Of a stretch of DNA of 26,998 nt, positions 1,384 to 24,613 are shown piece by piece. The notes beneath the pieces were generated by a model that saw only the letters and a list, made by a program, of their open reading frames with translations, was not told the DNA's origin and did no database searches. A program made the position numbers and the translations under genes. Each line of letters begins with the position of its first letter. Position 1 is the stretch's first letter. Source of the stretch: a virus; IMG/VR virus record IMGVR_UViG_3300025806_000166, positions 1-26,998 of that record. One strand, 5' to 3'.

Positions 1384-4300
1384 ATGGCAGACGAACCTAG
1401 AAACACACCAAATCCTTTTGAGATATTTGGTTCAACTACTGGCAATACACCTGATCCATTTGATATATTTGATACATATCAAAGACCTCCTACCCAAGAC
1501 AATACATCCAATCAACTAGGTACTGATAAAGTTAATGACAGGTCATTACCTATATTTGGTCTTGCTACAAATAATTTTACACCTGACGAAAACGATTGGA
1601 TAGATAGCGTTATAGCTGCACCTAGAGGTGTACTACGTGGTGCTGCAAGAACTATACCTTTATTGGGTGAAGGTGTGTGGGGTTTACTTGATCTAGCAAC
1701 TAACCTTTCAGGTCAAGAAGATTGGTTAAATCCTAGAGAGAGTGCATTTATATCTAGGATGGATGAACTACGTGAAGCTATTGGCGCAGAAGATAGTGTA
1801 GCTGGTAGAACAGGTGAAGCTTTAGGTAGCATATTAGGTTTTGTAGGCACAACTGTATTAACAGGTGGTGCTGGAGCAGCATCAAGATTAGGTGCTGGTT
1901 ATAATGCATTAAAAGCTGGGGAGTTGACAGCTGGAGCAGCTACTAAAGGTTTAGCATCAGCTATGCAATTAGCAGCACCGGGTTCCGCTATTGGTGTAGC
2001 AGAAGCTAGTGGCAGAATGCGTGAGTATGAGGCTGAAACAGGAGAAGATTTATCTGTTGCCGATAGAAACTTAGTATATGCATTAGGTGTACCTTTAGGT
2101 GCAACAGAGATATTACCTATAGTAAGACCATTATCCATATTATTATCAAAGATAACTAAACGAGGATTGCCTAAAGAAACCATTGACACCTACATGGACT
2201 TGGCAAGGTCAGCAGTTATAACGGGTACAGCAGAGGGAGCGCAAGAAGCATTAGCAAGCATAGGTCAAGATGCTATTGAAAAAGGAGTCTACAACGAATC
2301 AGCATCTATAGGTGATTCTATAGCATCAGAGTTTGGATATGGTGGTGGTGCTGGTGCTATCTTTGACTTAGGTGTTAACTTACTTACTAAAGGTAGACCA
2401 AAAGGAGGTAGACCGGTTGGACCTATTGAAGATGAAAGCGATGGATTAACTGGTGAAGAGACAGGAGAGGTAGAAGATGCATCTACTACAGATGTAGGAA
2501 GGACTAGTACAGTAAGAGACTTTACTGGTAGCGAAGAAATAGTATTAAAGGATGAGTTTGTAATACCTACAGAAAAAGAACCATCACCTATTATATCTCC
2601 TGTTATAAAAGGAAAAACTGCAACAGAAACTAAAGAAGAAAAATTAAAAGAAATAGAAGCTGAACTACAAGAACTAGACAATTTAAAAAACCCAGACGAT
2701 GTAGCTAATTTATTAGATATTAATTCTCCAGAGTATCAGGCTATAAATCATAGAATTGAAGCTTTAAAGGTGTTACGTAATGTATTGCAGAGTGGTGGAA
2801 AAAACAAAGATAAAGCATTTAATGAAACAACTCTTGATGAATTTATAGAAGCCCATATAGAAGAGCAACAACAAAATGATTTTCGTTTGCAAAATGCTAA
2901 AACATTAAATGATTCAGAAACAACAAACTTAAAAGAAAGAACCAAACAGAATGCGCAAAGAAGAAAAGAAGCAAGAGAAAACATACTTATAGACCCAGCA
3001 TTTTTAGACCCAGCATCTTTAAATCAAGATGTATTAACACCAACAGCAACAGGTTTGCAAGCAGAAATAGAAGCACAAGCACAAACATTTAAAGATGAAG
3101 TGCCTACGATACCTGATGTAGAAGAACAAATAAAAACTGAAGCAGTAAGACAACAACTACAAGAAGTTAATCCTGAGTTACAAGCTAATCTTGAACAAGA
3201 AGTACAACTTGAAAGACAGATACAAGAGTTAGAAGATGCAGATCAATTAACAGAAGCTGATCAATTAAAAGAACAAATAGATACAGTAAAAAAGAAACAA
3301 GTAGAATTAATTAAAAAAGAAAAAGTACCTGTTAAAAGAAGTAGATTAGTACAAACTTTTAATAGACCTGATGGTGAATCTTTTACTGCAAGATTTCCTG
3401 ATAGAGAAAGTATTGATGCATATTCAAATAAAAATGTAGTAAAAACAAAGAACAAACTTAATATAACTACACCTGCATACAGTCAATTTAAAAATAAATA
3501 CGATGCTTACGTAACAGAAGAAGTTAACTCAGCATACAAATCTGATACAAGAGACTTCAAACTACAGAGTTTTAAAGACTTTGTTGCACAAGAACAAGCC
3601 ACAGTACAAACTGAAGATATATTAAGTCAGGCAAATTTTAAGAATATAGATACAAACAATGATGCGTTTAAACGATTTTTATTTTTAAACACTAAGAAAA
3701 CAAATATAAAAGATTTAACTGGTTTACAAAGAAGAAGTATCTTTAGACAAATAGAAGCATTACCTACACAAACTGCAACCAAAACAAGTATTGATAAAGC
3801 TTTTAGTGAAAGTATAGATAACAGGCAAGCCTTTAGTAAGAATGAAGCTATCAAAGAAAGAACTAAAGAGTTACAAAATAAATACAACACAAACCAATTA
3901 CTAGATATAGCTAAATCTAGTGGAGTAAGTGAAGAGTTTATACAAGATACTGTAGGGCAAAGAGATAAAGCAACTATAGCTAGAGGTATAGCTAGAAGAG
4001 AAATTAATAATCAGATATCAGCAGAAGAAAACTACGAACAAGTAGCAGTAAGAACTGTACCTAATGTACAAGTAAGAAAAGTAAAAACAAAAGCATCTGA
4101 TCAAGCTAAAGGATTCCAACAATATAGCGTTTTATATCCTGATGACACAGTATTAAAAACTTTAATCCCAGCAAATATAGATGTAACAGACGCAAAAGAA
4201 CAAGCAGCAAGGCAAACTTTTGCACAGAGAGTAGAAAAATTAGAGCAAGAAAATACTAAAATAAAAGAAGCACCTGATGCATCACAACAAGATTACATAC

Positions 4301-7300
4301 AGGCTGTTAATAACTCATTGTTTAAACGTACTAATCCTTTAGCAGAGTTACTTGCTATAGCTGGACCGCAAGTTAAACAAAGCAGAACTCCAGCAATACA
4401 AACTGAACAAGTACAACAATTAATAGAAGAAGCACCTGAATTAGAAGTACCTGACATATCAGGCATTAACTATTCAGGAAACTTATATAAGTTTAAAGAC
4501 AATATAAATGCCAGTGATCTTGTAATGAATTTAAAACGTATAGTAAAAAGAACTATGCCTGATGCAGATGTGCGTGCAGTAGATAATTTATTTGATGAAG
4601 AAGGTAATGAAGTAGCCGGTGTAACTATTGGTGACATGATAGCTATAAATTTAGAAACAAACCCTGAGAGTGGTAGACCTAGATTTGCTTCACCTACAGA
4701 CACTGTGTATCACGAAGCTGTGCATTACTTTATAAATAATAATTATTTTAAACCAGAAGTATTACAAATTTTAGCCGAGAATCAACAACGAATATTTGAT
4801 ATTGCTAATTCAAGATTAAAACAAGGCGAAGATCAAACTGCAACTGTACAAAATTTTGAGGAAGCTGTTGCTGTAGCATCAGGATATTACAACGAACAAA
4901 AACTACAAGGCAGAATTCCTTTTGAATTTACACCGGGAATTAGAAGAGTATTTGAACCTATCTTTAAATTTTTTAATCAAGTTTCTAAATATTTTAGTGG
5001 CAAAAAATACAGAAGATTAGAAGATGTATTTGATGCAATTAGAACAGGTGATTTATATCAAGATGCAGTAGACAACCCTAGAATACTTAGTCCACCTCAA
5101 CAACAATTTTCTGATGAACTGTTTAAACGAACTGGTTATGTTGGATCATATAAAGGCGGACCATTAACTGAAGACATGAATCTTGATTATGATGCAGAAA
5201 GGAACATGACACCTTTATATAGCAGATCACCTTCTTTTGGGCTTGTAGAATTAAAGACTAGTAAGATGGGTCAAAGAATTGATAGGTTACAAGAGGCTGT
5301 GGATAACACTAAAACTAAATCTACTAAAGCAGACAAATGGTTAACAACTAATAAACAAGGACAAGAGTTGCTTACAGGTTCTAATATACCTTTTAATAAA
5401 CTTTATTTACAAGACACAAGATTAGAAGAATGGTTAGCAGAACAAGTAAATAAAGATGGTGTACCAAGAGAAGTAAACATAGATGAAATAAAAAACTATC
5501 TTAAAACTAATACTGGTTTTATATCTATGCAAATGACAGGTGGTGATATTACAACTTATGTAAGAGCAACCAATCTTGATGAACAACAAACTATAAAATA
5601 TTATCAAGATGAAATAAAAAATAACTCTATATCTTTAAATATACTTACATCAGGTGTGCAATCACATTTAGTAAATCAAGATGCAATTTATAAGAAATTA
5701 AAAGAAGAGTTTTATACAGGTCCAGATGATCAAGCATCAGGAGCATTTTATAATTTAACTAGAAATTTAGATGAAATAGAAAAGTCTTATAAAAAATTAA
5801 ACTTATCAATGAAACTTCCCATAGAAAGAAACTTTGATATTTTAAGACAAGCATTAAATGTAGAAACTAAATCACCTGATTTTATTTTTTCAGATTCTAA
5901 AGCTGGCGATATTGAAATAGCAATTAATCAATTAACTGTATCAGGACAGTTGCTACAAGATAAAGATGCTTTAAGAAAAGCTGACCCTGATGGTTACTTA
6001 GAAAAATTTTTAGTAGCTTTAGAAAACAATCAAATTGTTAGTGATCCTGTTATAGAAATCTTAGATGAAATAAATGCAGATTCATTTGATGGTGGTTTTA
6101 GATATACTAAATTAGATATACAAGACAACAAATTAACTCAGTTAATTAATGCAAGAAATTCAGCAAAAAGATCATATGAATATTTTTCAAAGTTACTATA
6201 TGGGGAAGGCGCACTAGGAGAATTAAATCCAACTATTAGGTCTTCATATAATCCTGCTGCATATCAAACAACTCCCGGATTTAATATAGATACTACGAGT
6301 GGAAAATTTACTGACATACAAAGACTAGCATTCAAAGCTTTAAAAGATGGTAATCCTAATAAATCAGAAGGACAAATATTAACTGAACAAGTCCAAGGTA
6401 TACCACAAGAAGTTAAAAATTTAACAGAAGAAGAGTTAGCAGAGTTTACACGTACACGTACTTTTGGAGAAGAGTCTGAGTATGGAACTACAGTACAAGT
6501 AGAAAATAGTAGAAACATTGTTTACTCTTGGAATCCGGGACCTTCACAAGAACAAAAAGGTTATTATCAAAATCCACATTTTCCTAATGGCACACGTAAT
6601 GCTTTTGTACACGCTAGAGTCAAAGATGTTTATATATTAGATGATAACAATACACTTAGAAAAATTTTATATATAGATGAAGTTCAATCTGATATGTATG
6701 CAGATGTTAAAAGAGCCATAGATAAATATCTTAAAGAATTAAATGTTGGTGATCCTAGAAAAGAAGCAGGAGCATCTGCCCTAACAGAAGCAGAGGTTAA
6801 AGAAGCATTAGAAGGGTATCCTACTACTAAAGATATGCCAGCTATACCGCTAATAGGATTTCCTAATCCTAACTTTAATAAGTGGCAAGATTTTATTATT
6901 GAAGAAATGAATATGCTTGCTGTTAACGAAGGATTTGATGGCATAGCTATTGCAAGTACAGCAATACAAGCAGAAAGAAATGGTAATAATTTAAAAAATA
7001 ATTTTAACTTTCTAAGTTTTTATCCTTCAGTTAGTCCAAGAGATATTGGTATTAGTTTAAGTACGGAATTAACTCATCTTCCTTCTGGACAAAAAGTAGA
7101 AGAAAGTTCTTTGCTACAACAAGGATATGTAACACAAGAGGAAATAAATCAAGATAATCCTTCTAATCCTAAACAAACTATAAGTGCAGCTGCACAATAT
7201 TTTGCTGATGTATTTACAAGAGATACTAATTCATATGAGTTTCAAACATATGTAAATTATGCTCGTTTAGTTGGCATGACAGATGGATTCATTAGTCAAG

Positions 7301-10300
7301 ATATGACTTTATCTTTAGAAGATTCTAATCCAATACGTCAACATTATGTAAATGCTTCTAATTATTTAGGTAGTGGTAACACAGAAAGTTTAGTTGGAAG
7401 TGTATCTTCTATATTGCCAAATGATTTAGCTAATTTAATAAAAGGTCAAATACAAAATGGTATTAGACCAAACATGCAAAGACCTGATATCAATGTTATT
7501 ACACAAGAAGAAGCTAGATTAGACCAAAATAATAATTTAACTATTGATACTTCAAGACTACTACGTAATGCAGGTAATCAACCAGCCATAGGTGCTGGCT
7601 ATATAAACTTAAGAAAGTTAACTACTAATCAAACAGAACAATTCTTTTCTAAATCAGGATGGGATATATACAGCAATACTTATCCTAATAAAATTAAAAA
7701 GTCTTTAGATAAACTAGGTGTTAAATATGAAACACAAGGTCAATCTGTTAAAGAAATAATACAAGATATATTTGGTGCAGATTCAGATGTAACTATAAAC
7801 AATGTAGGAGATAGAGACTTTCATTCTAATAGACAATATCAAGTACCATATGATGAGTTAGTAGAGCAAGAACAATTTACTATAGATGAAATTATATTTA
7901 GAACTAAAGCTGAAATAGATGCAAGAAAAGGTAAACCTTTATTATTACAAACAGCTTTTAGAAATAATTCAAGATTGCTTTACAAAGGTGAACCAACTAA
8001 AAAACATTTATCAAGATTTAATGTACCTATATTTACTTTTGATAGTAATGAGCAAGTAGTAAAAAATCCAGCTAAGTATTCAAGCACACCATCTGATGCA
8101 CAAAAAGCTAGTTATTGGAAAAGGATTACAGGATTCTTAGGCAACTTATCTCAAACTAAATACTTTAGTGGACTTGGTGGATTACCACAGTTAAAAGAGT
8201 TTATGAACTTACGTTATAGAACTGCTGGTGATATAAGACTAGCAGAGAAAGTAGCTGTAGATATGTATAACGATCTTGGTCCATATCTTAATCCTAAGAA
8301 AACAAACAAGAGTGAACAAGAGTTTAAACGTAATAGACGTGAGTTTAATTCATACATAGAAGGTGGTGTAGATGCAGATGCCTCACTTATAACCGATGAA
8401 AACCTACGTAAAGTTGCAGTAAAAACTAAAAAAGCAATAGATAGAGTAGGTGTTTTATTAGTTAATAATGGTTTGCTACCAACATCAAAGTTTGAAGAAA
8501 ATAGAGGAAGCTATCTGCCTAAGTTATATATGAAATATATACTTGATAATCCAAGTGGACAAAAACTAGCATACTTAAAGAAAAGAAAAGAATTAACAGA
8601 CGAAACTAGAATGATACTCGGAGACATACAAGAATTGTCACCTGAGTATAGAGTATTAGCTGGTATACAAAGACCTTTAAGAGATATGGCTATATTAGAT
8701 TTCTTTAATCAAGTTTCTAAGAATCAAAATTGGGCATTGCGTGATAAAGATATGCTTGTTGCAATAGAACAAGATGGTCAAACACAAAAGGTAAGTGCCT
8801 TGTGGTTACTTGAAGAATCAAAAAGATTGAGAGAACAAGCTGATTATTTTAGACAAGGCGAACCAGAACAAGCTGCAAGAATGGAATCATTAGCTAAACA
8901 ATATGAAGATTTAGGCAAGCCAGTTGCAGAGTCATTAGGATATGGCAATGATAATCCTATTGATGACAGGTTTAGAAGACTACCTACAAGTAAACAATAC
9001 GGAATGCTTAGAGGTGTTGCTGTAAGAAAAGAAATATACGATGACGTAGTAGGTACTTTTAGTATGGGTGATACTGATAATGCATTTAGTAAAACTATAG
9101 CTGCTTTAGAAAAAGGAACAAGTATATGGAAGCTTCTTAAAGTACCATTGAATCCACCTACAGTAGTACGTAACGTAGGTTCTAACATGATACTTATGAA
9201 TCTTGTAGGAGGTATACCTATACATAAAGTTATACCAAGAATGAGACAAGCTATTGAACAAATAAGAACTGATGGTAAGTATTGGAAGATAGCAGAAGAC
9301 TTTGGCATACAAGGAACAGGGTTTACAGATGCTGAAATGTATAGAGTAAGTGAAGAGTATTTAGATTTATTACAAGAACAAGATGCATTAGGACCCGTAG
9401 CTAAATTTTTTAGATTGCCAAAAATATTAGTACAAAAAACATTTAAGAAAGCTGGAGATATATATCAATTTACTGAGTCAGTAGGTAAAACAGCTATCAT
9501 AATAGATGCAATGGAAAGACAAGGCATGACAGACTTTGATGCTTTTATGTTGGCACAAAAATCTTTATTTGATTATTCAGATGTACCAGCAGCTGGTAAA
9601 TTATTTAGGAAAGCACCAATAGGTATGCCTTTCTTTACATTTTATTACAAAGCTTTTCCAGCATTAGTAGAGACTGCTATTAATCATCCATTTAGATTTG
9701 CACCATATGTAGCATTATCTGCTGGTCTTACTGCACTATCTGCATATGCATTTGGTTTTGAAGATGATGAAGAAAAAAAATTACAGAAAGGTTTAGAGCC
9801 TTGGCTTTCAAAAAGAACTGGTGTTTATGTATTGCCATACAAAGATTCTGAAGGAAGATATCAATTTTTAGATATAGGTTATTTCTTTCCTTGGACTATG
9901 TATACAGATGTAGTGAGGGATGCTGCTAATGGTGATTTTTTTGAAGCACAAAGAACAACAGGATTTTTATCAGGACCTTTTGCAGATATATTCTTAGCAA
10001 TAAAAACAAACAAAGACCCGTTTACACAGAGAACAATATGGGATGAACGTGATCCCGTAGAAGATAGAATACAAAATACATTGTGGTATATGTATAGTTT
10101 AGGTATGCCATCATGGTTAACACCTAATGGTGCTATAAGTAAAACTGCTAAAGCATTACAAGATATACCTAGACCTACAGGATCACCATCAGATACTGTG
10201 CCACAAGCATTGCTAAGATTTGTTGGAGTAAATGTTTATGGACTTGATCCTGTAGAAACAAGAAATAGAAATGTTAAAAAAATGAGACAAGAAATTCTTG

Positions 10301-10485
10301 ATGTACAACAGAGATTTAAATATGCAATGGCTAATAAATCTTACACAGAAGAAAAGAAAGAAAGATTAAGAGTGAAGTACATGCAAATGATAAAAGAAAA
10401 AGTAAATTTACTACAACAATATAAAATAGATACAGCTATACCAAGACATATATTAGAAAGGGAGAGTAAGTTCCAAGATGGATAG
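1384..10485 (+). CDS. Giant polyvalent virion-type protein (3033 aa)
   Basis: At 3033 residues this single frame takes up a third of the window. The N-terminus carries two related short motifs (NPFEIFG, PDPFDIFD). Alanine/glycine-rich hydrophobic helices follow at about 150-330, and long Glu/Gln/Lys coiled-coil-like stretches at about 410-1000. HEAVH at 1110-1114 is an HExxH zinc-peptidase motif. Residues about 1710-2150 resemble a domain recurrent in large phage proteins, with EVQSD at 1766-1770. From about residue 2580 (KVPLNPPTVVRNVGSN and onward) the C-terminus resembles the LPD38 type of large polyvalent protein, with a hydrophobic segment at about 2772-2795. Such proteins are thought to be packaged and injected with phage DNA. 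A purine-rich AGAGGA lies about 20 bases before the ATG. The next gene starts inside its last 8 bases. Domain names are from memory; the exact role is unknown. Confidence 0.8.
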   Translation: MADEPRNTPNPFEIFGSTTGNTPDPFDIFDTYQRPPTQDNTSNQLGTDKVNDRSLPIFGLATNNFTPDENDWIDSVIAAPRGVLRGAARTIPLLGEGVWGLLDLATNLSGQEDWLNPRESAFISRMDELREAIGAEDSVAGRTGEALGSILGFVGTTVLTGGAGAASRLGAGYNALKAGELTAGAATKGLASAMQLAAPGSAIGVAEASGRMREYEAETGEDLSVADRNLVYALGVPLGATEILPIVRPLSILLSKITKRGLPKETIDTYMDLARSAVITGTAEGAQEALASIGQDAIEKGVYNESASIGDSIASEFGYGGGAGAIFDLGVNLLTKGRPKGGRPVGPIEDESDGLTGEETGEVEDASTTDVGRTSTVRDFTGSEEIVLKDEFVIPTEKEPSPIISPVIKGKTATETKEEKLKEIEAELQELDNLKNPDDVANLLDINSPEYQAINHRIEALKVLRNVLQSGGKNKDKAFNETTLDEFIEAHIEEQQQNDFRLQNAKTLNDSETTNLKERTKQNAQRRKEARENILIDPAFLDPASLNQDVLTPTATGLQAEIEAQAQTFKDEVPTIPDVEEQIKTEAVRQQLQEVNPELQANLEQEVQLERQIQELEDADQLTEADQLKEQIDTVKKKQVELIKKEKVPVKRSRLVQTFNRPDGESFTARFPDRESIDAYSNKNVVKTKNKLNITTPAYSQFKNKYDAYVTEEVNSAYKSDTRDFKLQSFKDFVAQEQATVQTEDILSQANFKNIDTNNDAFKRFLFLNTKKTNIKDLTGLQRRSIFRQIEALPTQTATKTSIDKAFSESIDNRQAFSKNEAIKERTKELQNKYNTNQLLDIAKSSGVSEEFIQDTVGQRDKATIARGIARREINNQISAEENYEQVAVRTVPNVQVRKVKTKASDQAKGFQQYSVLYPDDTVLKTLIPANIDVTDAKEQAARQTFAQRVEKLEQENTKIKEAPDASQQDYIQAVNNSLFKRTNPLAELLAIAGPQVKQSRTPAIQTEQVQQLIEEAPELEVPDISGINYSGNLYKFKDNINASDLVMNLKRIVKRTMPDADVRAVDNLFDEEGNEVAGVTIGDMIAINLETNPESGRPRFASPTDTVYHEAVHYFINNNYFKPEVLQILAENQQRIFDIANSRLKQGEDQTATVQNFEEAVAVASGYYNEQKLQGRIPFEFTPGIRRVFEPIFKFFNQVSKYFSGKKYRRLEDVFDAIRTGDLYQDAVDNPRILSPPQQQFSDELFKRTGYVGSYKGGPLTEDMNLDYDAERNMTPLYSRSPSFGLVELKTSKMGQRIDRLQEAVDNTKTKSTKADKWLTTNKQGQELLTGSNIPFNKLYLQDTRLEEWLAEQVNKDGVPREVNIDEIKNYLKTNTGFISMQMTGGDITTYVRATNLDEQQTIKYYQDEIKNNSISLNILTSGVQSHLVNQDAIYKKLKEEFYTGPDDQASGAFYNLTRNLDEIEKSYKKLNLSMKLPIERNFDILRQALNVETKSPDFIFSDSKAGDIEIAINQLTVSGQLLQDKDALRKADPDGYLEKFLVALENNQIVSDPVIEILDEINADSFDGGFRYTKLDIQDNKLTQLINARNSAKRSYEYFSKLLYGEGALGELNPTIRSSYNPAAYQTTPGFNIDTTSGKFTDIQRLAFKALKDGNPNKSEGQILTEQVQGIPQEVKNLTEEELAEFTRTRTFGEESEYGTTVQVENSRNIVYSWNPGPSQEQKGYYQNPHFPNGTRNAFVHARVKDVYILDDNNTLRKILYIDEVQSDMYADVKRAIDKYLKELNVGDPRKEAGASALTEAEVKEALEGYPTTKDMPAIPLIGFPNPNFNKWQDFIIEEMNMLAVNEGFDGIAIASTAIQAERNGNNLKNNFNFLSFYPSVSPRDIGISLSTELTHLPSGQKVEESSLLQQGYVTQEEINQDNPSNPKQTISAAAQYFADVFTRDTNSYEFQTYVNYARLVGMTDGFISQDMTLSLEDSNPIRQHYVNASNYLGSGNTESLVGSVSSILPNDLANLIKGQIQNGIRPNMQRPDINVITQEEARLDQNNNLTIDTSRLLRNAGNQPAIGAGYINLRKLTTNQTEQFFSKSGWDIYSNTYPNKIKKSLDKLGVKYETQGQSVKEIIQDIFGADSDVTINNVGDRDFHSNRQYQVPYDELVEQEQFTIDEIIFRTKAEIDARKGKPLLLQTAFRNNSRLLYKGEPTKKHLSRFNVPIFTFDSNEQVVKNPAKYSSTPSDAQKASYWKRITGFLGNLSQTKYFSGLGGLPQLKEFMNLRYRTAGDIRLAEKVAVDMYNDLGPYLNPKKTNKSEQEFKRNRREFNSYIEGGVDADASLITDENLRKVAVKTKKAIDRVGVLLVNNGLLPTSKFEENRGSYLPKLYMKYILDNPSGQKLAYLKKRKELTDETRMILGDIQELSPEYRVLAGIQRPLRDMAILDFFNQVSKNQNWALRDKDMLVAIEQDGQTQKVSALWLLEESKRLREQADYFRQGEPEQAARMESLAKQYEDLGKPVAESLGYGNDNPIDDRFRRLPTSKQYGMLRGVAVRKEIYDDVVGTFSMGDTDNAFSKTIAALEKGTSIWKLLKVPLNPPTVVRNVGSNMILMNLVGGIPIHKVIPRMRQAIEQIRTDGKYWKIAEDFGIQGTGFTDAEMYRVSEEYLDLLQEQDALGPVAKFFRLPKILVQKTFKKAGDIYQFTESVGKTAIIIDAMERQGMTDFDAFMLAQKSLFDYSDVPAAGKLFRKAPIGMPFFTFYYKAFPALVETAINHPFRFAPYVALSAGLTALSAYAFGFEDDEEKKLQKGLEPWLSKRTGVYVLPYKDSEGRYQFLDIGYFFPWTMYTDVVRDAANGDFFEAQRTTGFLSGPFADIFLAIKTNKDPFTQRTIWDERDPVEDRIQNTLWYMYSLGMPSWLTPNGAISKTAKALQDIPRPTGSPSDTVPQALLRFVGVNVYGLDPVETRNRNVKKMRQEILDVQQRFKYAMANKSYTEEKKERLRVKYMQMIKEKVNLLQQYKIDTAIPRHILERESKFQDG

Positions 10486-10915
10486 AGATAAATTAGTAAA
10501 AGAAATAATACAAGACGAAGGTTTTGAGTATGAGATATACCTAGATCATCTAGGTTATCCTACGTTTGGAGTAGGTCATTTAATAATACCTAAAGATGAA
10601 GAATACAGAATGGATGTAGGTACGCCAGTATCTGAAGAAAGAATACTACAGTGTTTAAACGCTGACATAGATATAGTATGTATGGAGTTAGATAGAAACA
10701 TGTCATGGTGGAAAGACTTAGATGATAATAAACAAAGGGTCATGGCGAACATGGCTTTTAATCTAGGTCTACCTAGATTGGGAGGTTTCAAAAAATTTTT
10801 GAAGGCTATGGAGGAAGGAGATTTCCAAACAGCCTCTGTCGAAATGATGGACAGCAGGTGGGCTACACAGGTAGGTGACAGAGCGAAAAGATTAAGAGAT
10901 AGAGTATCAGCATGA
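10478..10915 (+). CDS. T4-type lysozyme, endolysin (GH24 muramidase)
   Basis: This 145-residue protein would cleave the N-acetylmuramic acid-N-acetylglucosamine bond of peptidoglycan during lysis. The GH24 catalytic arrangement is complete: Glu14, Asp23 and Thr29 give E-x8-D-x5-T, followed by GVGH at 31-34. A second conserved block, with NMAFNLG near residue 90, is also present. The length is close to that of T4 and P22 lysozymes. There is no signal peptide or N-terminal anchor, so a holin should be needed for release. The start overlaps the end of the giant gene by 8 bases and the stop overlaps the next small membrane-protein gene by 4 bases (ATGA), indicating translational coupling. It opens the lysis module. 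Confidence 0.93.
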   Translation: MDRDKLVKEIIQDEGFEYEIYLDHLGYPTFGVGHLIIPKDEEYRMDVGTPVSEERILQCLNADIDIVCMELDRNMSWWKDLDDNKQRVMANMAFNLGLPRLGGFKKFLKAMEEGDFQTASVEMMDSRWATQVGDRAKRLRDRVSA

Positions 10916-11208
10916 CAGAAGCATTTGATCTGATAGCTAAGTTAGGACTGCCTATAGCTAGTGGATTAATCATGGCTTTCTTTATATTCCTAGTAATGAA
11001 ACAACTTATGGATGGTCTAGTAGATGAGATCAAAACTATAGAGGGTATATCTAAGATGCTTATAACTAGAGCATCAACAATGAACAACGATATTATACGT
11101 ATAGATACCAGTGTATCTAGCGCACTTAACATGTCACCAGACTTAGAACGGATAGCTAGAGCAGAGAACTTCGTAGAGGATGGCAGTATAGATGCAAGGC
11201 GAGACTGA
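10912..11208 (+). CDS. Small single-span membrane protein, candidate holin
   Basis: The 98 residues contain one hydrophobic segment at about 12-32 (GLPIASGLIMAFFIFLVM) followed by a charged helical tail. Position immediately after the endolysin with a 4-base ATGA overlap is classic for a holin or holin regulator. A one-span holin with a cytoplasmic coiled tail (class III or BhlA/XhlA-like) is the best fit. It shares its layout with the following gene: a short N-terminal amphipathic stretch containing GLP or GFP, one membrane helix, then a helical tail. The two may be a duplicated pair. Function is inferred from position and topology; I recognise no specific family. Confidence 0.7.
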   Translation: MTEAFDLIAKLGLPIASGLIMAFFIFLVMKQLMDGLVDEIKTIEGISKMLITRASTMNNDIIRIDTSVSSALNMSPDLERIARAENFVEDGSIDARRD

Positions 11209-11465
11209 TGGATATAGCAAAGATAGTACAAGACTTTGGTTTTCCTGTGGTTATGGTCGTAGGTCTAGGGTATTTCGTATACTTTGTTTGGCAAACTATA
11301 ACCAATAGGATAGACCCAGCAGTTGCCGAAATGAAAACGACAATCATCAGGCTTACCGACCAGCTTAGATTGCTAGATCAAGACATGATACGTCTACAGC
11401 AGAAGGTCAATACAGTTTTAGAACTAAGAGAACAAGAGAAAAATAATGAACAAAGAAAAAATTAA
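11208..11465 (+). CDS. Small single-span membrane protein with coiled coil, candidate holin
   Basis: This 85-residue protein has one hydrophobic segment at about 10-30 (DFGFPVVMVVGLGYFVYFVW), then a heptad-like helical tail with repeated Leu and Gln/Arg (about 40-75). The start codon overlaps the previous stop (TGATG), so the two are probably translated together. The topology resembles one-span phage holins and XhlA-like proteins with an extended coiled tail. Together with the upstream gene it could form a holin/antiholin or two-component pore. An alternative is a membrane scaffold unrelated to lysis. There is no catalytic motif. Confidence 0.7.
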   Translation: MDIAKIVQDFGFPVVMVVGLGYFVYFVWQTITNRIDPAVAEMKTTIIRLTDQLRLLDQDMIRLQQKVNTVLELREQEKNNEQRKN

Positions 11466-11694
11466 ACAAATAGAAGAAGAACAATTAGTTTCTATAGACA
11501 ATGTAATATTTGAACCTATGCCTAAAAGACCTTTTCCACGAGACAAGTATATCTATGAAGACGAAAGGTTTAATTCTGAACAGGATTGGATTTATCTAAA
11601 TAAATTAGGTAGGACTATAGAAATAACCTCTTGTTCATTTATTTTATTATCTTTGATTGGGTTATTAGCGGTTTTTGTTTGGGTAAAATTTTAA
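11446..11694 (+). CDS. Small tail-anchored membrane protein, unknown function
   Basis: The 82-residue product is hydrophilic and acidic for about 57 residues, then ends in a single hydrophobic helix (SCSFILLSLIGLLAVFVWV) with only a Lys-Phe tail. It therefore looks C-terminally anchored with its bulk in the cytoplasm. The start lies 20 bases inside the preceding gene. The region contains PMPKRPFPRDKY, a proline-rich basic patch. I do not recognise a family. Its place in a run of four small membrane proteins after the endolysin suggests a role in lysis timing or membrane remodelling, but nothing in the sequence proves it. Confidence 0.6.
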   Translation: MNKEKIKQIEEEQLVSIDNVIFEPMPKRPFPRDKYIYEDERFNSEQDWIYLNKLGRTIEITSCSFILLSLIGLLAVFVWVKF

Positions 11695-11703
11695 GGAGTA
11701 AAC

Positions 11704-11901
11704 ATGGCAAGAAAAAAACAAATATCTAAAAGACAAAAAGTTTTTAATTTTATTGATACCTCAATAGATTTATTACAGTTAAATTGGAAAAGATATGCAG
11801 TAACTGGTTGCATTTTGTTCGCATTTAGTTGTCTTGGTTATATAACTTTTTATTGGATAGATACAGTTGAAAGCGTAGATTTAGTAATTACTTATCTATA
11901 A
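11704..11901 (+). CDS. Small basic membrane protein, unknown function
   Basis: The 65 residues have a strongly basic N-terminus (ARKKQISKRQK), an amphipathic stretch and one membrane helix at about 32-52. The positive-inside rule predicts a cytoplasmic N-terminus. The ribosome binding site is clear: AAGGAG about 5 bases before the ATG at 11704, one of the best in the late region. It is the last small membrane protein before the curli cassette, with 5 bases to csgF. Family and function are unknown; a holin or antiholin role is possible from context. Confidence 0.6.
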   Translation: MARKKQISKRQKVFNFIDTSIDLLQLNWKRYAVTGCILFAFSCLGYITFYWIDTVESVDLVITYL

Positions 11902-11906
11902 ATATC

Positions 11907-12374
11907 ATGCCTTCTAAACGCCCTGATGAATTACTGCTGATAGCTTCCATGATTATTGTCATGTTTGTAGTTTTATCTGTACAAGCTGATGAAATGACAC
12001 ACAAGTTTAAGAACCCTAGTTTCTCAGGGGTTGGTACCTCAAGTCATTACTTAACTATAGAGAATCAAGAGTTCAATAGGAAAGAAACTATACGAGAAGA
12101 GATCAGGGCATATACAGAAGACCTAGAGAGAGAGGCTGAGAACACTACGTTAGCTAGGTTTATACGTAACTTAGAGAGTAGAATATATGCACAACTCAGC
12201 AGACAGTTGGTTGATAGTTTGTTTGGTGAGACTGCATCTGATTTTGGTACGCTAGAATTAGAAGGTAACACCATAGAATATAGAGTAGAGGAAGATAAAG
12301 TAACACTAATAATTACAGATGAAGAAGGCAATACTACAGAAATTACTGTTCCCTTGGGTTCTTTTACTTTCTAA
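11907..12374 (+). CDS. csgF: CsgF-like curli channel accessory protein
   Basis: In curli systems CsgF is secreted to the outer surface, docks into the CsgG channel and links it to fibre nucleation. The 155-residue protein starts with a signal peptide (hydrophobic core about 9-25, likely cleavage after VQA at residue 27). The mature N-terminus matches the CsgF channel-plug pattern: Met30-Thr31, Phe34, Asn36-Pro37, Phe39 and Gly41. The C-terminus has the CsgF-like beta segment with an NTTEITV strand. It is somewhat longer than E. coli CsgF (about 138). No convincing ribosome binding site precedes 11907. Its last 56 bases also encode the CsgG signal peptide in the +1 frame. Context with csgG makes the call secure despite low identity. 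Confidence 0.87.
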   Translation: MPSKRPDELLLIASMIIVMFVVLSVQADEMTHKFKNPSFSGVGTSSHYLTIENQEFNRKETIREEIRAYTEDLEREAENTTLARFIRNLESRIYAQLSRQLVDSLFGETASDFGTLELEGNTIEYRVEEDKVTLIITDEEGNTTEITVPLGSFTF

Positions 12375-13170
12375 TTGCGCTTTAATAGTAGACCCATTGG
12401 GTAATGGGATACCTCCAATAAGAAGTATTGAGTCAGCAGAGGTTGGTGCTTTACTTACTAACCTTTCAGAAGTAGATACACCTATAAAGAAACCTGTAGT
12501 AGCTGTATATCCTAATTCTTTTAAAGACGATACAGGACAACGAAGAAGTAATAGTCAGTACGCAAGCTTTAGTACAGCTATTACACAGTCACCTGATGCT
12601 TACCTAATACGAGCATTGAAACATTCCAATGTATTTAATGTAGTTGAACGTAAAGGTTTAGATAATCTTACTAAAGAAAGACAGATCATACGTACTACTA
12701 GAGAAAACTTTGATGAAAAACAAAAGGTAAAACCTTTATTGTTTGCTGGAATACTAATGGAAGGTGGTGTTGTAGGTTATGAAACTAATGTTAAGTCAGG
12801 TGGTGCAGGTGCAAGATACCTTGGTATAGGTGGTTCAAAACAATACAGACAAGACTCCGTAACTATATCTTTACGTACAGTATCAGTCAGTACAGGTGAA
12901 ATATTGATTGAAGTATTAGTAACTAAGTCAATTCTTAGTGCTTCTATAACACAAGATGTATTTAGATTCTATAACAATAATACTGAATTAGTTGAAATTG
13001 AGAGTGGTATAGTAGAAAATGAGTCTATAAACATTGCTTTACAGATGGCAGTAGAGACAGCGGTTTTACAAACAATAGAGGAGGGCTATGCAGAAGGCTA
13101 TTGGAAACATGAAAATAATATTAATCAGCCTAGTTGTGATAATGAGTGTATCTCTGATTTACGGGGCTGA
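12319..13170 (+). CDS. csgG: CsgG-like curli secretion channel lipoprotein
   Basis: CsgG forms a nonameric outer-membrane channel for unfolded curlin subunits. The 283-residue product matches along its whole length. It has a lipoprotein signal ending LLLSNC with Cys20 as the lipidated residue (Asn at -1 is unusual), a DDTGQ segment, FSTAITQSPDAYL at 84-96, and ERKGLDNLTKER at 110-121. The family hallmark GYETNVKSGGAGARY lies at 153-167, followed by STGEIL and VFRF. Phe84 aligns with the constriction Phe56 of E. coli CsgG; the neighbouring constriction Tyr and Asn are not clearly kept. The start must be at or near 12319 because Cys20 is only two bases past the csgF stop, so the 56-base overlap is real. 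The family assignment is very secure. Confidence 0.95.
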   Translation: MKKAILQKLLFPWVLLLSNCALIVDPLGNGIPPIRSIESAEVGALLTNLSEVDTPIKKPVVAVYPNSFKDDTGQRRSNSQYASFSTAITQSPDAYLIRALKHSNVFNVVERKGLDNLTKERQIIRTTRENFDEKQKVKPLLFAGILMEGGVVGYETNVKSGGAGARYLGIGGSKQYRQDSVTISLRTVSVSTGEILIEVLVTKSILSASITQDVFRFYNNNTELVEIESGIVENESINIALQMAVETAVLQTIEEGYAEGYWKHENNINQPSCDNECISDLRG

Positions 13171-13825
13171 CAACGAAATATTTATAGACCAGTCAGGTGC
13201 TACATCTAATTTGGATATAGAGCAGGTAGGTGGTAGTGGTAATATAATTGGTGGAGCAACTGCTGCTGCTGGTTCTATGACAGCATTAGATATTGATGGT
13301 GCGACTATGACCTTAGATATATTACAGAAAGGTAATACAAATAAATTCCTTGGTGATATATGGGCAGATAACTACACAGGTTACTTCTCTTTTATAGGTG
13401 ATACCAACACATTTAATATGTCTACAGATGAGACCAATGCTACAGGTGCAGATGGTTCTAATGTAAATGTACAGGTTACAGGCAATACAAATACGTTTAC
13501 ACTCAATCACGCTATGACTGCACTTGCAGCTAACTTAGATTTAGATTGGACAATACAAGGTTCAGGAAACTCAATAACTTCATCTATAGATGTAGATGGT
13601 GCTACAAACTTTATGGATATAGATGGTAGTGATAATACAGTCACCTATGATGGGGATGGGTATGCTGGAGGTTATTTTTACTTAGATCATACAGGTAGTA
13701 CAAGGACATTTAACATAGATCAGGAGTCTACATCAGATAATGACTGGCTTAAAATTACATCTGTTGGCTCTAGTGGTACTGTCTGTGTTACTCAGTCAGA
13801 CGCAACTACTTCATTCATCTGTTGA
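13109..13825 (+). CDS. Secreted curlin-repeat protein (CsgA/CsgB-like)
   Basis: This is the likely substrate of the CsgG channel. From the ATG at 13109 the product is 238 residues, with a signal peptide (hydrophobic core 3-18, cleavage about YGA at 20). An upstream ATG at 13088 has GGAGGG only 2 bases away and would add a poor extension, so 13109 is preferred; GAAGG lies 11 bases before it. The mature part has degenerate curlin repeats of the form I-x-Q-x-G-x-x-x-N, for example I26-Q28-G30-N34 and I37-Q39-G41-N45, and later LQKGNTN, VTGNTNTF and IQGSGN. It is rich in Gly, Asn, Asp and Thr and poor in Lys and Arg, as expected for a beta-solenoid amyloid. Two Cys lie near the C-terminus. It overlaps csgG by 62 bases and the FecR gene by 86. 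Confidence 0.82.
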   Translation: MKIILISLVVIMSVSLIYGADNEIFIDQSGATSNLDIEQVGGSGNIIGGATAAAGSMTALDIDGATMTLDILQKGNTNKFLGDIWADNYTGYFSFIGDTNTFNMSTDETNATGADGSNVNVQVTGNTNTFTLNHAMTALAANLDLDWTIQGSGNSITSSIDVDGATNFMDIDGSDNTVTYDGDGYAGGYFYLDHTGSTRTFNIDQESTSDNDWLKITSVGSSGTVCVTQSDATTSFIC

Positions 13826-14855
13826 GATAGGCTCTATATCTGAAGTAAGAGGCAATGCACAGGTCCTTAGAGACAAACCTTATGGTGCTGAACTAGCATT
13901 TAACATACAACAAATGGATGATGTCCGTACAGAAACGGGCAGAGTTGCCATAACTTTTGCGGATTCTTCTACAGTAAAACTTACAGAGCATTCTAAGCTA
14001 GTAATAGATGAGTACATCTATGACCCTGACCCATCTAAATCAAAGATGGCACTCAAGTTTGCTAGTGGTACAGCACGTTTTATTACAGGCAAGTTCAATA
14101 ATAAAAGCAACATATCTATACGTACGCCAACAGCCCAGATTGCAATCAGAGGCACAGACTTTACATGTACAGTAGATGAACTAGGAAGAAGTCTAGTTAT
14201 ATTATTGCCTGATGAAAATGGTATATCTAGTGGTGAAATTATAGTGTCTACCGGTATGGGTAGTGTAACTTTAAATAAACCCTATCAAGCTACTACAGTA
14301 TCTGTTTACGAAAACAATCCTACTAAGCCTGTTACCTTAGACATATCACTGGACTTGATAGATAACATGTTGATTGTTAATCCTCCACAAGAAGTAGAAC
14401 AATCAATAGAAGAATCACAAACACAATCTACAGTAGACTATTTAGAGTTTGATGATCTTGATATAGATTATCTTGCCGAAGATTTCTTAGATGCAGAAGC
14501 AGAACTAGAGTTTACTGAACTAGATATTAACTATTTAGATGTAAACTTTCTTGAAGATTTACTAAATGTATTAGATGCATTAGCTATAACGAAAGAAGAA
14601 GATGCACTCAAGCAAGGTGGTGTTGGTATTCGTATAGCTGGTACAGATATAGGACAAGACAAAGACACACAGATTACAACTATAGTCTCAGGACAGAACA
14701 TAAGTCTTACAAGAACAGTAAACCAAAGTGCTAAACTAAACTTAGATGGTTCTGATAGTTATACAATTATACTCATACAAGATGGTGTATCTAATACAGT
14801 AAAAATTAATGGTGGTTCATCAACAACAATAACAATTAAACAAAGTTCAGGATGA
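13740..14855 (+). CDS. FecR-domain periplasmic protein with curlin-like tail
   Basis: The 371-residue protein starts with a signal peptide (hydrophobic about 5-23). A FecR domain spans about 30-190, with the typical core RTPTAQIAIRGTDF at 128-141. FecR domains are periplasmic sensor or ligand modules and are often encoded next to CHASE2 cyclases. After it comes an acidic region with a near-duplicate (EFDDLDIDYL at 236-245, EFTELDINYL at 257-266). The C-terminus (about 318-371) resembles curlin repeats: I346-Q347-G349-N352 and a final Q368-S-S-G. This points to contact with, or nucleation of, the upstream curlin-like protein. The signal peptide is encoded within the last 86 bases of the curlin gene. 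CAGGAG lies 13 bases before the ATG. It overlaps the cyclase gene by 4 bases (ATGA). Confidence 0.86.
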   Translation: MTGLKLHLLALVVLSVLLSQTQLLHSSVEIGSISEVRGNAQVLRDKPYGAELAFNIQQMDDVRTETGRVAITFADSSTVKLTEHSKLVIDEYIYDPDPSKSKMALKFASGTARFITGKFNNKSNISIRTPTAQIAIRGTDFTCTVDELGRSLVILLPDENGISSGEIIVSTGMGSVTLNKPYQATTVSVYENNPTKPVTLDISLDLIDNMLIVNPPQEVEQSIEESQTQSTVDYLEFDDLDIDYLAEDFLDAEAELEFTELDINYLDVNFLEDLLNVLDALAITKEEDALKQGGVGIRIAGTDIGQDKDTQITTIVSGQNISLTRTVNQSAKLNLDGSDSYTIILIQDGVSNTVKINGGSSTTITIKQSSG

Positions 14856-16618
14856 AAAAAAGTATTATATTTATAGGTTTATTTCTTACATTAGGTTCAG
14901 TCTATGTGTATCAGCCTATAGCTTACGAGATATTAAAACTTAAAACCTTTGATTCATTTGTAAAAGATCAAGAACCTTCAGGTTATTTTACTGTACTTAA
15001 TATAACTGAAGATGATATAACTAATGAGGGCGGTTATCCTTTACCAAGACAAAGGCTTGCAGAGGTGCAATCGCAGTTGATACAGAAGGGGGCTTTAGGT
15101 ATTGGCTGGGTAATCGCCTTCCCCCAGCCAGATAGATTTGGTGGTGACATAGAGTTTAAACATTCTCTTGAACAGGCTGCGTCAGTTCTGGCAATGTTTG
15201 AAGGTAACAATGGTTTATATCCACCTACTACTGGCACTGTAATACTAGGTGATGATATAGGCGGGATGCAAATAGAAGGTGTGATCCAGAATATTGATAT
15301 GTTTAAACAATCAACAGCCCAAGGATTAGCTGTTGCCCGGACTGATGTAGATAATTTAATAAGAAGGTTGCCTTTATTAATGCGTACACCTGATGGATGG
15401 ACACCAGCTTATGGAACAGAAGTATTAAAGATACTTGCCGGTGCAGATACCTACGTTATAAAAACAAATGATAATGGATTAGAAGAGATACGAGTTAAAG
15501 GTTTACCTGCTGTACCTGTAGATTCATTAGGTCGTAAGTGGATTAGTTGGGTTGATACACCTCAAACAGACTTAGCAACTATGGATGTACAAGATAAGTT
15601 TGTGTTCATAGGTTTTACAGCTAAAGGTATTATGCCTCAGTTGGCTACACCTGTAGGTTTATTAGAGCCACATAAAATACAAGCAAGTCTAGCTGAAAGT
15701 ATACTAATACAAGACAGTCCTTATATACCTGACTATGCATTAGCATTAGAGGTATTAATATTCATTGCCTCTACTGTATTTGTTTGGCTTGTATTGAACG
15801 TGTTTGGTATTACCTTGGGGATATCATTCTTTGCTATAGTTTTTTTATCTACAGCTACTTATGGAGTTTATACTATACAAAATGGTGTACTATTAGATGT
15901 AACATGGGCTTTAATATCTCAATTTATTACAGGAAGCGTTGCTTTTTATGTAAGATTTAGAGAACAATATAAGTTAAGACAACAAATAAAGAAACAATTT
16001 GAACATTACCTTGACCCTAGACAAGTTAAACAACTACAAAAAAATCCTAGCTTATTAAAGTTAGGAGGAGAAAAACGATATGCTACCTTCTTATTTACTG
16101 ATGTTCGGGGATTCACCTCTATGTCGGAGACTCTCGAACCGGAAGACGTTACCTATATTATGAACAAAGCTTTGACTGCACAGCAAAGTGCAGTGCAAAA
16201 GAATGGTGGTATGGTAGATAAATATATAGGCGATGCCATGATGGCAATATTTAATGCACCTATTAATCAAGACTTCCACGAAAACAAAGCCATAGATTGT
16301 GCTGTAGATATCCAGCGTAACATGGAAAGTTTAAACATAGAGTTAATGGACCGGGGTATCCCGGCTGTAGCTATTGGTATAGGTATTAATACAGGCTATG
16401 CAGTGATAGGTAACATGGGTAGTGAATCTAGGTTTGACTATACTGCTATAGGTGATGCAGTAAACATAGGTGCTAGGTTAGAAAGCGGAACAAAAGAAGC
16501 TGGCGTTGATGTATTAATAGGCTATAACACTGCCATTAAAAGCGATTATGAGTTAACATTATTAGAACCTTTACAAGTAAAAGGTAAGGAGAAACCACTA
16601 GATGTTTACACATTATAG
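14852..16618 (+). CDS. CHASE2-domain class III adenylate cyclase
   Basis: This is an inner-membrane sensor enzyme that should make cAMP from ATP. The 588 residues comprise an N-terminal membrane helix (about 4-24), a periplasmic CHASE2 sensor (about 30-290), and three membrane helices (about 295-370). A linker and a cytosolic cyclase domain (about 405-588) follow. Catalytic residues look intact: metal-binding Asp417 (FTDVRGFT) and Asp461 (YIGDAMMAIF), purine-selecting Lys457 and Asp529 (Lys/Asp favours ATP), and transition-state Asn538 and Arg542 (NIGARLE). The 4-base overlap with the FecR gene suggests a sensor pair, as seen in bacterial FecR-CHASE2 cyclase loci. The stretch around 16105-16150 has more GC-rich codons than its surroundings, a possible sign of transfer. 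Three GTTTAAAC sites lie inside the gene. Confidence 0.93.
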   Translation: MKKSIIFIGLFLTLGSVYVYQPIAYEILKLKTFDSFVKDQEPSGYFTVLNITEDDITNEGGYPLPRQRLAEVQSQLIQKGALGIGWVIAFPQPDRFGGDIEFKHSLEQAASVLAMFEGNNGLYPPTTGTVILGDDIGGMQIEGVIQNIDMFKQSTAQGLAVARTDVDNLIRRLPLLMRTPDGWTPAYGTEVLKILAGADTYVIKTNDNGLEEIRVKGLPAVPVDSLGRKWISWVDTPQTDLATMDVQDKFVFIGFTAKGIMPQLATPVGLLEPHKIQASLAESILIQDSPYIPDYALALEVLIFIASTVFVWLVLNVFGITLGISFFAIVFLSTATYGVYTIQNGVLLDVTWALISQFITGSVAFYVRFREQYKLRQQIKKQFEHYLDPRQVKQLQKNPSLLKLGGEKRYATFLFTDVRGFTSMSETLEPEDVTYIMNKALTAQQSAVQKNGGMVDKYIGDAMMAIFNAPINQDFHENKAIDCAVDIQRNMESLNIELMDRGIPAVAIGIGINTGYAVIGNMGSESRFDYTAIGDAVNIGARLESGTKEAGVDVLIGYNTAIKSDYELTLLEPLQVKGKEKPLDVYTL

Positions 16619-16650
16619 AAAATGGGCTGCGCCCGCACGTGCTGCTGAAG

Positions 16651-17052
16651 ATGTTTAAAATAAGTATTGGACTTGCATTTCTCCTTATCATATCTGGTAT
16701 CTGGATATACAGTTTAAACGGAACCATATCGCAACTTCAGGCAAACCAGATTGTTTTAGAAACTGAAGTCACCAAACAAAACGAACAGATCAAAAAGAAT
16801 TTAGAACAACAAGCACAGACTTATGCACAGATAGATAGCCTGACAAAAAAGAATCAGGACTCTATGCGAGAAGTAAACGCACTCAAACAAACATTCGCTA
16901 AGCACGACTTAGATAACCTTGCCCTAGCAAAACCCAAGATGATTGAAACTAGAGTCAATAGAGCGAGCAAGAGAGTGTTCGATGATCTAGTTAAGATCAC
17001 TAACCCTACACAATTTGATGAGACAGATGAAGAAACTAGTAATACTGATTAG
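16651..17052 (+). CDS. Rz-like inner-membrane spanin
   Basis: The 133-residue protein begins with one membrane helix (about 2-22), followed by a long Gln/Lys/Glu-rich periplasmic coiled coil (about 28-90). That is the layout of an i-spanin, which joins an outer-membrane lipoprotein to fuse the two membranes in the last step of lysis. A GTG 12 bases upstream (16639) could extend it by MLLK; neither start has a good ribosome binding site, so the ATG is preferred. The next gene, a small lipoprotein, starts within its 3' end, as in Rz/Rz1 pairs. The GC-rich stretch 16624-16645 separates it from the cyclase gene. No sequence-level family match is claimed. Confidence 0.78.
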   Translation: MFKISIGLAFLLIISGIWIYSLNGTISQLQANQIVLETEVTKQNEQIKKNLEQQAQTYAQIDSLTKKNQDSMREVNALKQTFAKHDLDNLALAKPKMIETRVNRASKRVFDDLVKITNPTQFDETDEETSNTD

Positions 17053-17377
17053 CTTTTGCCTGTTGGCAAGTGGATGTTCGTTGATGAGACAGGCAGTCAA
17101 GCCTATAGAAGTGGTTAACATAGAGGAGAGACCGCCTATGTTTCATCCTCCATTGCCTATAGAAATGCAGATGCTTGGATTTGATTGGGAGGTTCTAACA
17201 CCTGAAATTATGCAGGAGTACCTTACCCTTGTCGAAGAAGGTAAAGCACCTAGACAGGCTTACTATGCGCTGACAACGAAGGATTACGAGAACATAAGCA
17301 ACAACATGGCTGAGATCAAGAGATACACAAGGGATATCCTTGCCATCGTAGAATACTACAGAGACTTAGACGAGTAG
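17027..17377 (+). CDS. Small lipoprotein, candidate outer-membrane spanin
   Basis: Starting at the ATG at 17027, the 116-residue product has a lipoprotein signal (KKLVILISFCLLASGC) with a good lipobox. A proline-rich segment follows (ERPPMFHPPLP), then a helical C-terminal domain with conserved-looking YYALTTKDYENIS and YYRDLDE. Overlap with the preceding i-spanin (26 bases, different frame) and the Pro-rich mature N-terminus argue for the Rz1 role. It is longer than typical Rz1, and similar proteins occur in marine phages as unknowns, so another structural role is possible. Alternative starts are TTG at 17015 and ATG at 17018. It ends the (+) block; the next gene converges with a one-base gap. 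Confidence 0.7.
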   Translation: MKKLVILISFCLLASGCSLMRQAVKPIEVVNIEERPPMFHPPLPIEMQMLGFDWEVLTPEIMQEYLTLVEEGKAPRQAYYALTTKDYENISNNMAEIKRYTRDILAIVEYYRDLDE

Positions 17378-24222: not shown

Positions 24223-24613
24223 AATTTTGCTCCTTTGTTTTTAAATTTATTAATCTTTGTAAGTCATGTTTCTCTACAATAAAATCCAACTCCTTACTCT
24301 CTTGTTCATTCCACATACGGAATAGTTTATACACATATTGTCGTGACACACCTACCTCACTGGCAATTTTATTACCATTGATTCCTTCTGCACGTAACTG
24401 CCTGATCATATCAGTACGCTTTGCGCTTTCGGGTGGGTTAGGAGGTTGACACAATGCATCATACTCATGTTGTGGAAGGTTCAAGCTAAGCTGATACCTT
24501 ATCGTAGAGACTGGTTGCAAGATGATGTTCGCTATCTGTGTTAGCGAGTCACCACGCTTGCGTAATTCTATGGCTTGTTCAAGCCAGTATGGGGATTTAT
24601 TTCTTCTTGGCAT
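24212..24613 (-). CDS. Protein with two helix-turn-helix segments, candidate regulator
   Basis: The 133-residue product has two likely helix-turn-helix segments: about 22-45 (DSLTQIANIILQPVSTIRYQ) and about 78-97 (GINGNKIASEVGVSRQYVYK). The second resembles the Trp-repressor or resolvase-type helix-turn-helix. A helical tail follows. It could be a phage transcription regulator or a small terminase-like DNA-binding protein. It is placed in an early-type operon and overlaps the ADP-ribosyltransferase-like gene upstream by 17 bases, which favours a regulator. Its target is unknown; the repeats at 21535-21613 and the GTTTAAAC sites are candidates worth testing. Confidence 0.75.
   Translation of the reverse strand: MPRRNKSPYWLEQAIELRKRGDSLTQIANIILQPVSTIRYQLSLNLPQHEYDALCQPPNPPESAKRTDMIRQLRAEGINGNKIASEVGVSRQYVYKLFRMWNEQESKELDFIVEKHDLQRLINLKTKEQNYVE

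Follow-up and report, generated by a model that had tools for sequence, protein, structure and literature searches.

Curli modules of marine phages and layout of the window

The closest described counterparts of the locus reported here are the curli modules of SAR11 phages. Wittmers et al. 2022 (PMC9599517) describe nine HTVC023P-type podophages in which genes for CsgF, CsgG, CsgA/B, FecR and an adenylate cyclase follow one another in a fixed order, and the same five-gene set in T4-like pelagiphages. According to that text the genes preceding csgF are histidine kinases, the viral curli genes are expressed in the ocean, and the accessory proteins CsgE, CsgC and CsgD are absent from alphaproteobacterial and phage modules alike. 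Homologues of csgF and csgG have also been published for pelagimyophages (Zaragoza-Solas et al., 2020) and for phage Melnitz (Buchholz et al., 2022), in line with the remark on some marine phages in a sequence-only reading of the DNA studied here. Phages HTVC008M and Melnitz (PMC7029224, PMC9004378) share with our locus the order tmA-tmB-csgF-csgG-curlin-fecR-cyclase, in which tmA and tmB are small genes considered below; unlike our locus, however, their modules have no adjoining spanin genes, and a second curlin gene with Curlin_rpt matches, lacking here, lies between fecR and the cyclase gene. Buchholz et al. describe Melnitz as lacking csgA/B (PMC9004378), contrary to which the Melnitz GenBank record labels two curlin repeat proteins.

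The DNA analysed (hereafter the window) is a linear virus record of 27 kb (26,998 nucleotides). Its module is not new, having been published in 2022 for SAR11 phages, and it agrees in gene order and phage type with the HTVC023P-type module in the main text of Wittmers et al. (PMC9599517). The sequence-only reading had supposed that a complete set of channel, plug, substrate, periplasmic sensor and cAMP enzyme would exceed what was known from phages; this does not hold, because Wittmers et al. had already described all five together. The same main text is silent on CHASE2, holin, spanin and lysozyme, whereas CHASE2, spanin and lysozyme genes are present in the window. What we add is the breadth of recurrence, two small partner proteins (tmA and tmB), and the observation that the host has nothing that would obviously receive the signal; the added evidence sharpens the questions of which small genes the module includes and of its location within lysis cassettes in more than one type of phage.

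The list of open reading frames confirms the coordinates and order of the five genes (11907-16618), and their consecutive arrangement is borne out by these positions and by Pfam, curlin being assigned through its family. The proposed lysis genes on both sides are likewise present: a lysozyme gene to the left, and Rz/Rz1 spanin genes to the right. The features are as follows.

10478-10915, + strand: endolysin, T4-type lysozyme, left lysis flank (PF00959 Phage_lysozyme, 6.3e-12; phrog_7 endolysin, 7.7e-18)
10912-11208, + strand: tmA, 98 aa, TM 11-29 (phrog_18771, 5e-22)
11208-11465, + strand: tmB, 85 aa (phrog_18771, 5.3e-27)
11446-11694, + strand: tmC, small membrane protein with C-terminal TM, in some related loci only
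11704-11901, + strand: tmD, small membrane protein with one TM, in some related loci only
11907-12374, + strand: csgF, predicted secreted CsgG-binding protein (PF10614, 7.5e-19)
12319-13170, + strand: csgG, predicted outer-membrane lipoprotein pore (PF03783, 2.1e-52)
13088-13825, + strand: curl, secreted curlin-repeat-type protein, likely type VIII secretion system (T8SS) substrate (family evidence)
13740-14855, + strand: fecR, signal peptide and periplasmic FecR domain (PF04773, 7.6e-14)
14852-16618, + strand: CHASE2 receptor adenylate cyclase (Pfam CHASE2, 1.3e-24; Guanylate_cyc, 3.9e-18)
16639-17052, + strand: Rz inner-membrane spanin (phrog_739, 1.3e-10)
17015-17377, + strand: Rz1 outer-membrane lipoprotein spanin (phrog_812, 1.1e-14)

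The cassette edges show no sharp break in base composition, and PHROGs families exist for csgF, csgG, fecR and the cyclase, none of them named for a function. Neighbouring module genes overlap by about 55-85 bases (12319-12374, 13088-13170 and 13740-13825), so that each following protein has its signal-peptide region encoded, in a different frame, within the part of the preceding gene that specifies the C-terminus; the csgF-csgG overlap is similar in loci L121 and L345, and is absent in HTVC008M. An Rfam search of the window returned no RNA families, and promoter and terminator scans did no better than shuffles. Elsewhere in the window, a 3033-aa open reading frame (1384-10485) occupies one third of its length without matching Pfam, and only one INPHARED record (MW202615.1, 25% identity) matches the C-terminal part of its product. 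A 329-aa protein on the minus strand (24597-25586) is also without a Pfam match, and its stretch FRGCHGFNEQGCSWSTDRKVAEKFA resembles, by eye, ADP-ribosyltransferases.

Proteins of the module

CsgG, with the lipobox LLSNC, matches the solved CsgG structure 3x2r at 9.2e-47 in profile comparison. The FKNPSFSG at the N-terminus of CsgF, the part that binds CsgG, is conserved and aligns with FRNPNFGG of E. coli CsgF, at a weak profile E of 0.16. With a predicted CsgG lipoprotein pore and a CsgF bearing the CsgG-binding N-terminus, the locus is classed as type VIII (curli) secretion. CsgE, CsgC and CsgD, which had been called absent, gave no match among the window proteins scanned.

Failure of the CsgF and curlin calls in structure searches had been named as refuting evidence. 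CsgF has its Pfam match, and the all-beta AlphaFold2 model of curl (pLDDT 84.7) found nothing significant in Foldseek. The curl protein of the window itself has no Curlin_rpt match and a sub-threshold DUF3060 match only. In its family, Curlin_rpt matches 7 of 36 members (best 6.2e-10), the invariant columns form a Q/G/N ladder following the curlin Q-x-G-x-x-N pattern, and the top PDB profile match, weak at E 0.039, is to 8c50, a protein with curlin repeats. We regard curl as a likely candidate for the T8SS substrate, curlin-type by family. In podophage-type curl the C-terminus (13781-13822) reads VCVTQSDATTSF[IV]C, the two cysteines of which are missing in the myophage type.

The AlphaFold2 model of the FecR protein comprises a signal peptide, a FecR fold (Foldseek 9.2e-5 against the PupR signalling domain), a low-confidence linker at residues 210-295 and a beta C-terminus. 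Ahead of the FecR fold there is only a signal-peptide-like helix (residues 3-23), with neither an anti-sigma domain nor a TM helix, and an iron-citrate-type anti-sigma regulator is therefore unsupported. The C-terminal tail compares with the curlin C-terminus at an hhalign E of 0.0019 with an HHalign probability of only 14%; 20 column shuffles gave E 0.14 or worse, and the next-best real comparison 0.01. A curlin-like tail is thus suggested, and only suggested, by these comparisons.

Upstream of csgF, tmA has a single N-terminal TM segment and a conserved C-terminal DARRD, and its paralogue tmB has one TM segment and an amphipathic helix with a conserved D-R-LD-D-IRL motif. The sequence-only reading was right about the five genes and overlooked these two conserved small ones (10912-11465). 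They accompany csgF in 95 of the 98 scorable loci, in 86 with a tmA/tmB gene directly upstream and in nine more on the opposite strand beyond the module. A search seeded with tmB found csg genes in 73 of 77 newly fetched loci, and of the four exceptions, three have Rz-Rz1 (L420 and L422) or a lysozyme gene (L372) directly after tmB. In the isolate collection tmB occurs only in HTVC008M and Melnitz phages. On this genomic evidence tmA and tmB belong to the module, and the csgF linkage, taken with the Rz and lysozyme adjacency, marks them as predicted partners of the module that also have ties to the lysis genes. Pfam detected neither HisKA/HATPase nor any other known domain in tmA and tmB of the window or in 32 tmB members; no histidine kinase was found upstream of csgF in the window, where the conserved genes at this position encode small single-TM proteins with no kinase domains. 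These may be the genes that the main text of Wittmers et al. (PMC9599517) names histidine kinases.

All 133 phage homologues of the cyclase have the residues D417, K457, D461 and R542 without exception; they carry T, S or D at position 531, and at position 538 either N (103 homologues) or S (30). We take these residues to be the class III metal, adenine and transition-state positions, and Lys457 and Thr531 presumably fit an adenine-specific enzyme. Its CHASE2 sensor and Asp/Lys/Asp/Arg set place the protein among CHASE2 class III adenylate cyclases, with predicted activity. A Pycsar cyclase was considered and rejected, as PycC matches span only the shared catalytic domain and no other module protein has a PADLOC match. 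Domains that bind cNMP, the only cAMP readers surveyed, were found in 2 of 60 Pelagibacteraceae genomes, many of them possibly incomplete; class III cyclases were also found in 2 of 60, in both cases on a contig bearing the phage-type module. Nor was a phage-encoded receptor (PF00027) found in 11 module-bearing phage records, including the complete HTVC008M and Melnitz. Since the SAR11 family almost always lacks a cNMP-binding protein and these phage records lack one too, the cyclase has no known reader, and for SAR11 hosts there is reason to doubt the earlier suggestion that it might tune cAMP signalling in the infected cell. A conserved enzyme predicted to make cAMP is delivered to cells that appear unable to read it.

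Recurrence among phages and possible roles during infection

Scanning IMG/VR with CsgG, FecR and myophage-type FecR yielded 224 viral loci, 124 of them non-redundant as judged by shared 300-mers. At least three core genes are present in 115 of the 124, and all five in 81. The order csgF-csgG-curl-fecR-cyclase is unbroken in all 115, and no locus of the 124 violates it; the recurrence in viruses that the sequence-only reading had asked about is plain. Most core-gene comparisons give dN of about 0.04-0.12 vs dS of about 0.5-1.2, and the core genes are, on these estimates, under purifying selection.

We identified no terminase gene in the window. L095/G002, a sister contig with the same csg-lysis-ERF-Cas4-primase block, has a TerL with 54% identity to 023Pt_psg01 and HTVC027P and 52% to HTVC023P, and the window is most likely from an HTVC023P-type podophage. 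Beyond this type and the T4-like pelagiphages, the module is carried by siphophage-like contigs (such as L153, with tape measure and fibre J), by the tentatively N4-like L121 (N4-type helicase, weak virion RNA polymerase match), and by contigs of 213, 222, 300, 338 and 364 kb. Identities of 85-92% between the csgF, curl and fecR proteins of the window and those of L121 are consistent with a recent exchange across types of phage. Four loci (L320 on the 300-kb contig, L323 on the 213-kb contig, L324 and L348) have an extra match to the cyclase model upstream of csgF.

Our favoured explanation, to which we give somewhat better than even weight, is that the locus is a SAR11-phage-type T8SS module that would export a surface amyloid at a late stage and relay status through FecR, CHASE2 and cAMP. 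The module would be expressed together with the lysis genes; CsgG would form a pore in the outer membrane, narrowed by the CsgF N-terminus, through which the curlin-repeat protein may be exported to assemble on the outside of the cell. From the periplasm the FecR protein, ending in its curlin-like strand, could signal the state of the substrate or the pore to the cyclase by way of the CHASE2 domain, whereupon the cyclase would make cAMP, and tmA and tmB might be inner-membrane partners that bind module and envelope together. Most probably the benefit would be an altered surface of the doomed cell before lysis, through sibling aggregation or competitor exclusion. Marine phages commonly carry the module, and SAR11, which has no curli of its own, would gain from it a new function at the surface while infected. 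What the parts are, their order and conservation, their place among lysis genes and the intact catalytic residues are established at the level of sequence; pore assembly, curl export, FecR-to-CHASE2 signalling and benefit from a surface amyloid are what we infer from it. Surface-amyloid export is supported by the domain matches, the similarity of CsgG to 3x2r, the fixed order, the purifying selection, the CsgF N-terminus, the curlin ladder and the Curlin_rpt matches in the curl family, and further by the pairing of FecR with CHASE2 in bacteria, the retention of tmA-tmB by lysis genes and the reported ocean expression. It is weakened in that CsgE did not turn up, the canonical second curlin of HTVC008M and Melnitz is missing from the window, the cyclase has no known reader, and curl has no significant fold match. 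The strongest counter-evidence is that cells infected with Melnitz, a cultured phage bearing the module, showed no clumping (PMC9004378). Our search found no HTVC008M infection transcriptomes covering the curli genes.

The module might instead time or assist lysis, with the CsgG-CsgF pore, tmA-tmB and the spanins acting on the envelope and FecR-CHASE2-cAMP serving as a timing signal rather than any fibre being made. Buchholz et al. proposed a lysis role in Melnitz, and the cassette sits inside the lysis cassette, with Rz/Rz1 following the cyclase in 56 of the 82 loci with room for them and Rz-Rz1 upstream of the module in eight further loci; where the cassette is missing, tmA-tmB stay beside lysozyme or Rz. 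Co-expression with late genes may, however, be all that the position reflects, the module has no recognised lysis gene next to it in the T4-like HTVC008M and Melnitz or on very large contigs, and the curlin gene is retained almost throughout; we consider such a role unlikely, at perhaps one chance in a handful. Quite unlikely in our estimation is a seven-gene envelope system (tmA, tmB, CsgF, CsgG, curlin, FecR and CHASE2 cyclase), in which the FecR tail would let the cyclase sense secretion status and so couple amyloid export to lysis timing in hosts without a cAMP receiver of their own.

Import is improbable. In this scheme, raised in the texts of Wittmers et al. and Zaragoza-Solas et al., an open CsgG pore would admit nutrients or iron complexes to the infected cell under an iron-citrate-type FecR regulator; that CsgE, the periplasmic gate, was not seen would suit it, but the FecR domain is preceded by a signal peptide and not by an anti-sigma domain, and the conserved CsgF and curlin would be needless for a simple pore. 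That the five genes are remnants of bacterial DNA, or were joined to a phage contig in assembly, has a negligible chance, even though close relatives lie in contigs binned as bacteria: the module is under purifying selection and carried by cultured phages, and its order recurs in many metagenome contigs. An assembly chimera, named in the sequence-only reading as what would overturn it, is ruled out because the window's module junctions recur in separate metagenome contigs (e.g. L006, L008, L093 and L104).

Bacterial counterparts

A periplasmic FecR protein encoded beside a CHASE2 receptor is also found in bacteria. The FecR gene SMc02177 of S. meliloti is numbered beside CyaD1 (SMc02176), a CHASE2-domain cyclase (PMC5498481), and the Burkholderia BiofilmReg operon has a like pair, the output of which is a histidine kinase, unlike the phage cyclase. 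These pairs have no reported link to curli genes, whereas the phage pair is joined to them. Among the 20 closest alphaproteobacterial CHASE2-cyclases, six have a FecR-domain gene within about 4 kb, whereas 416 kb of curli loci from bacteria contained no such gene.

Most curli loci of alphaproteobacteria have csgF, csgG and curlin in the phage order, but fecR, the cyclase gene and tmA/tmB had no matches in the 23 such loci that make up these 416 kb. The phage module therefore looks like a composite of two bacterial parts, and the notion that FecR and the cyclase are ordinary parts of a bacterial curli operon is rejected. A CsgG profile search of genome contigs did not yield the bacterial origin, because its matches were mainly short contigs with phage-type gene order in bacterial MAGs. 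Seven contigs with the phage-type module (L084, L085, L086, L088, L089, L090 and L427) are binned in MAGs labelled Maricaulis, Neomarinimicrobiota, Flavobacteriaceae, Rhodobacteraceae and Pelagibacter, and curli calls in MAGs of these kinds can be phage genes. In INPHARED, a 1499-base record named Salmonella phage S.Kent 1-2-1 (OR851715.1) has a CsgG match at 42% identity and may be mislabelled host DNA.
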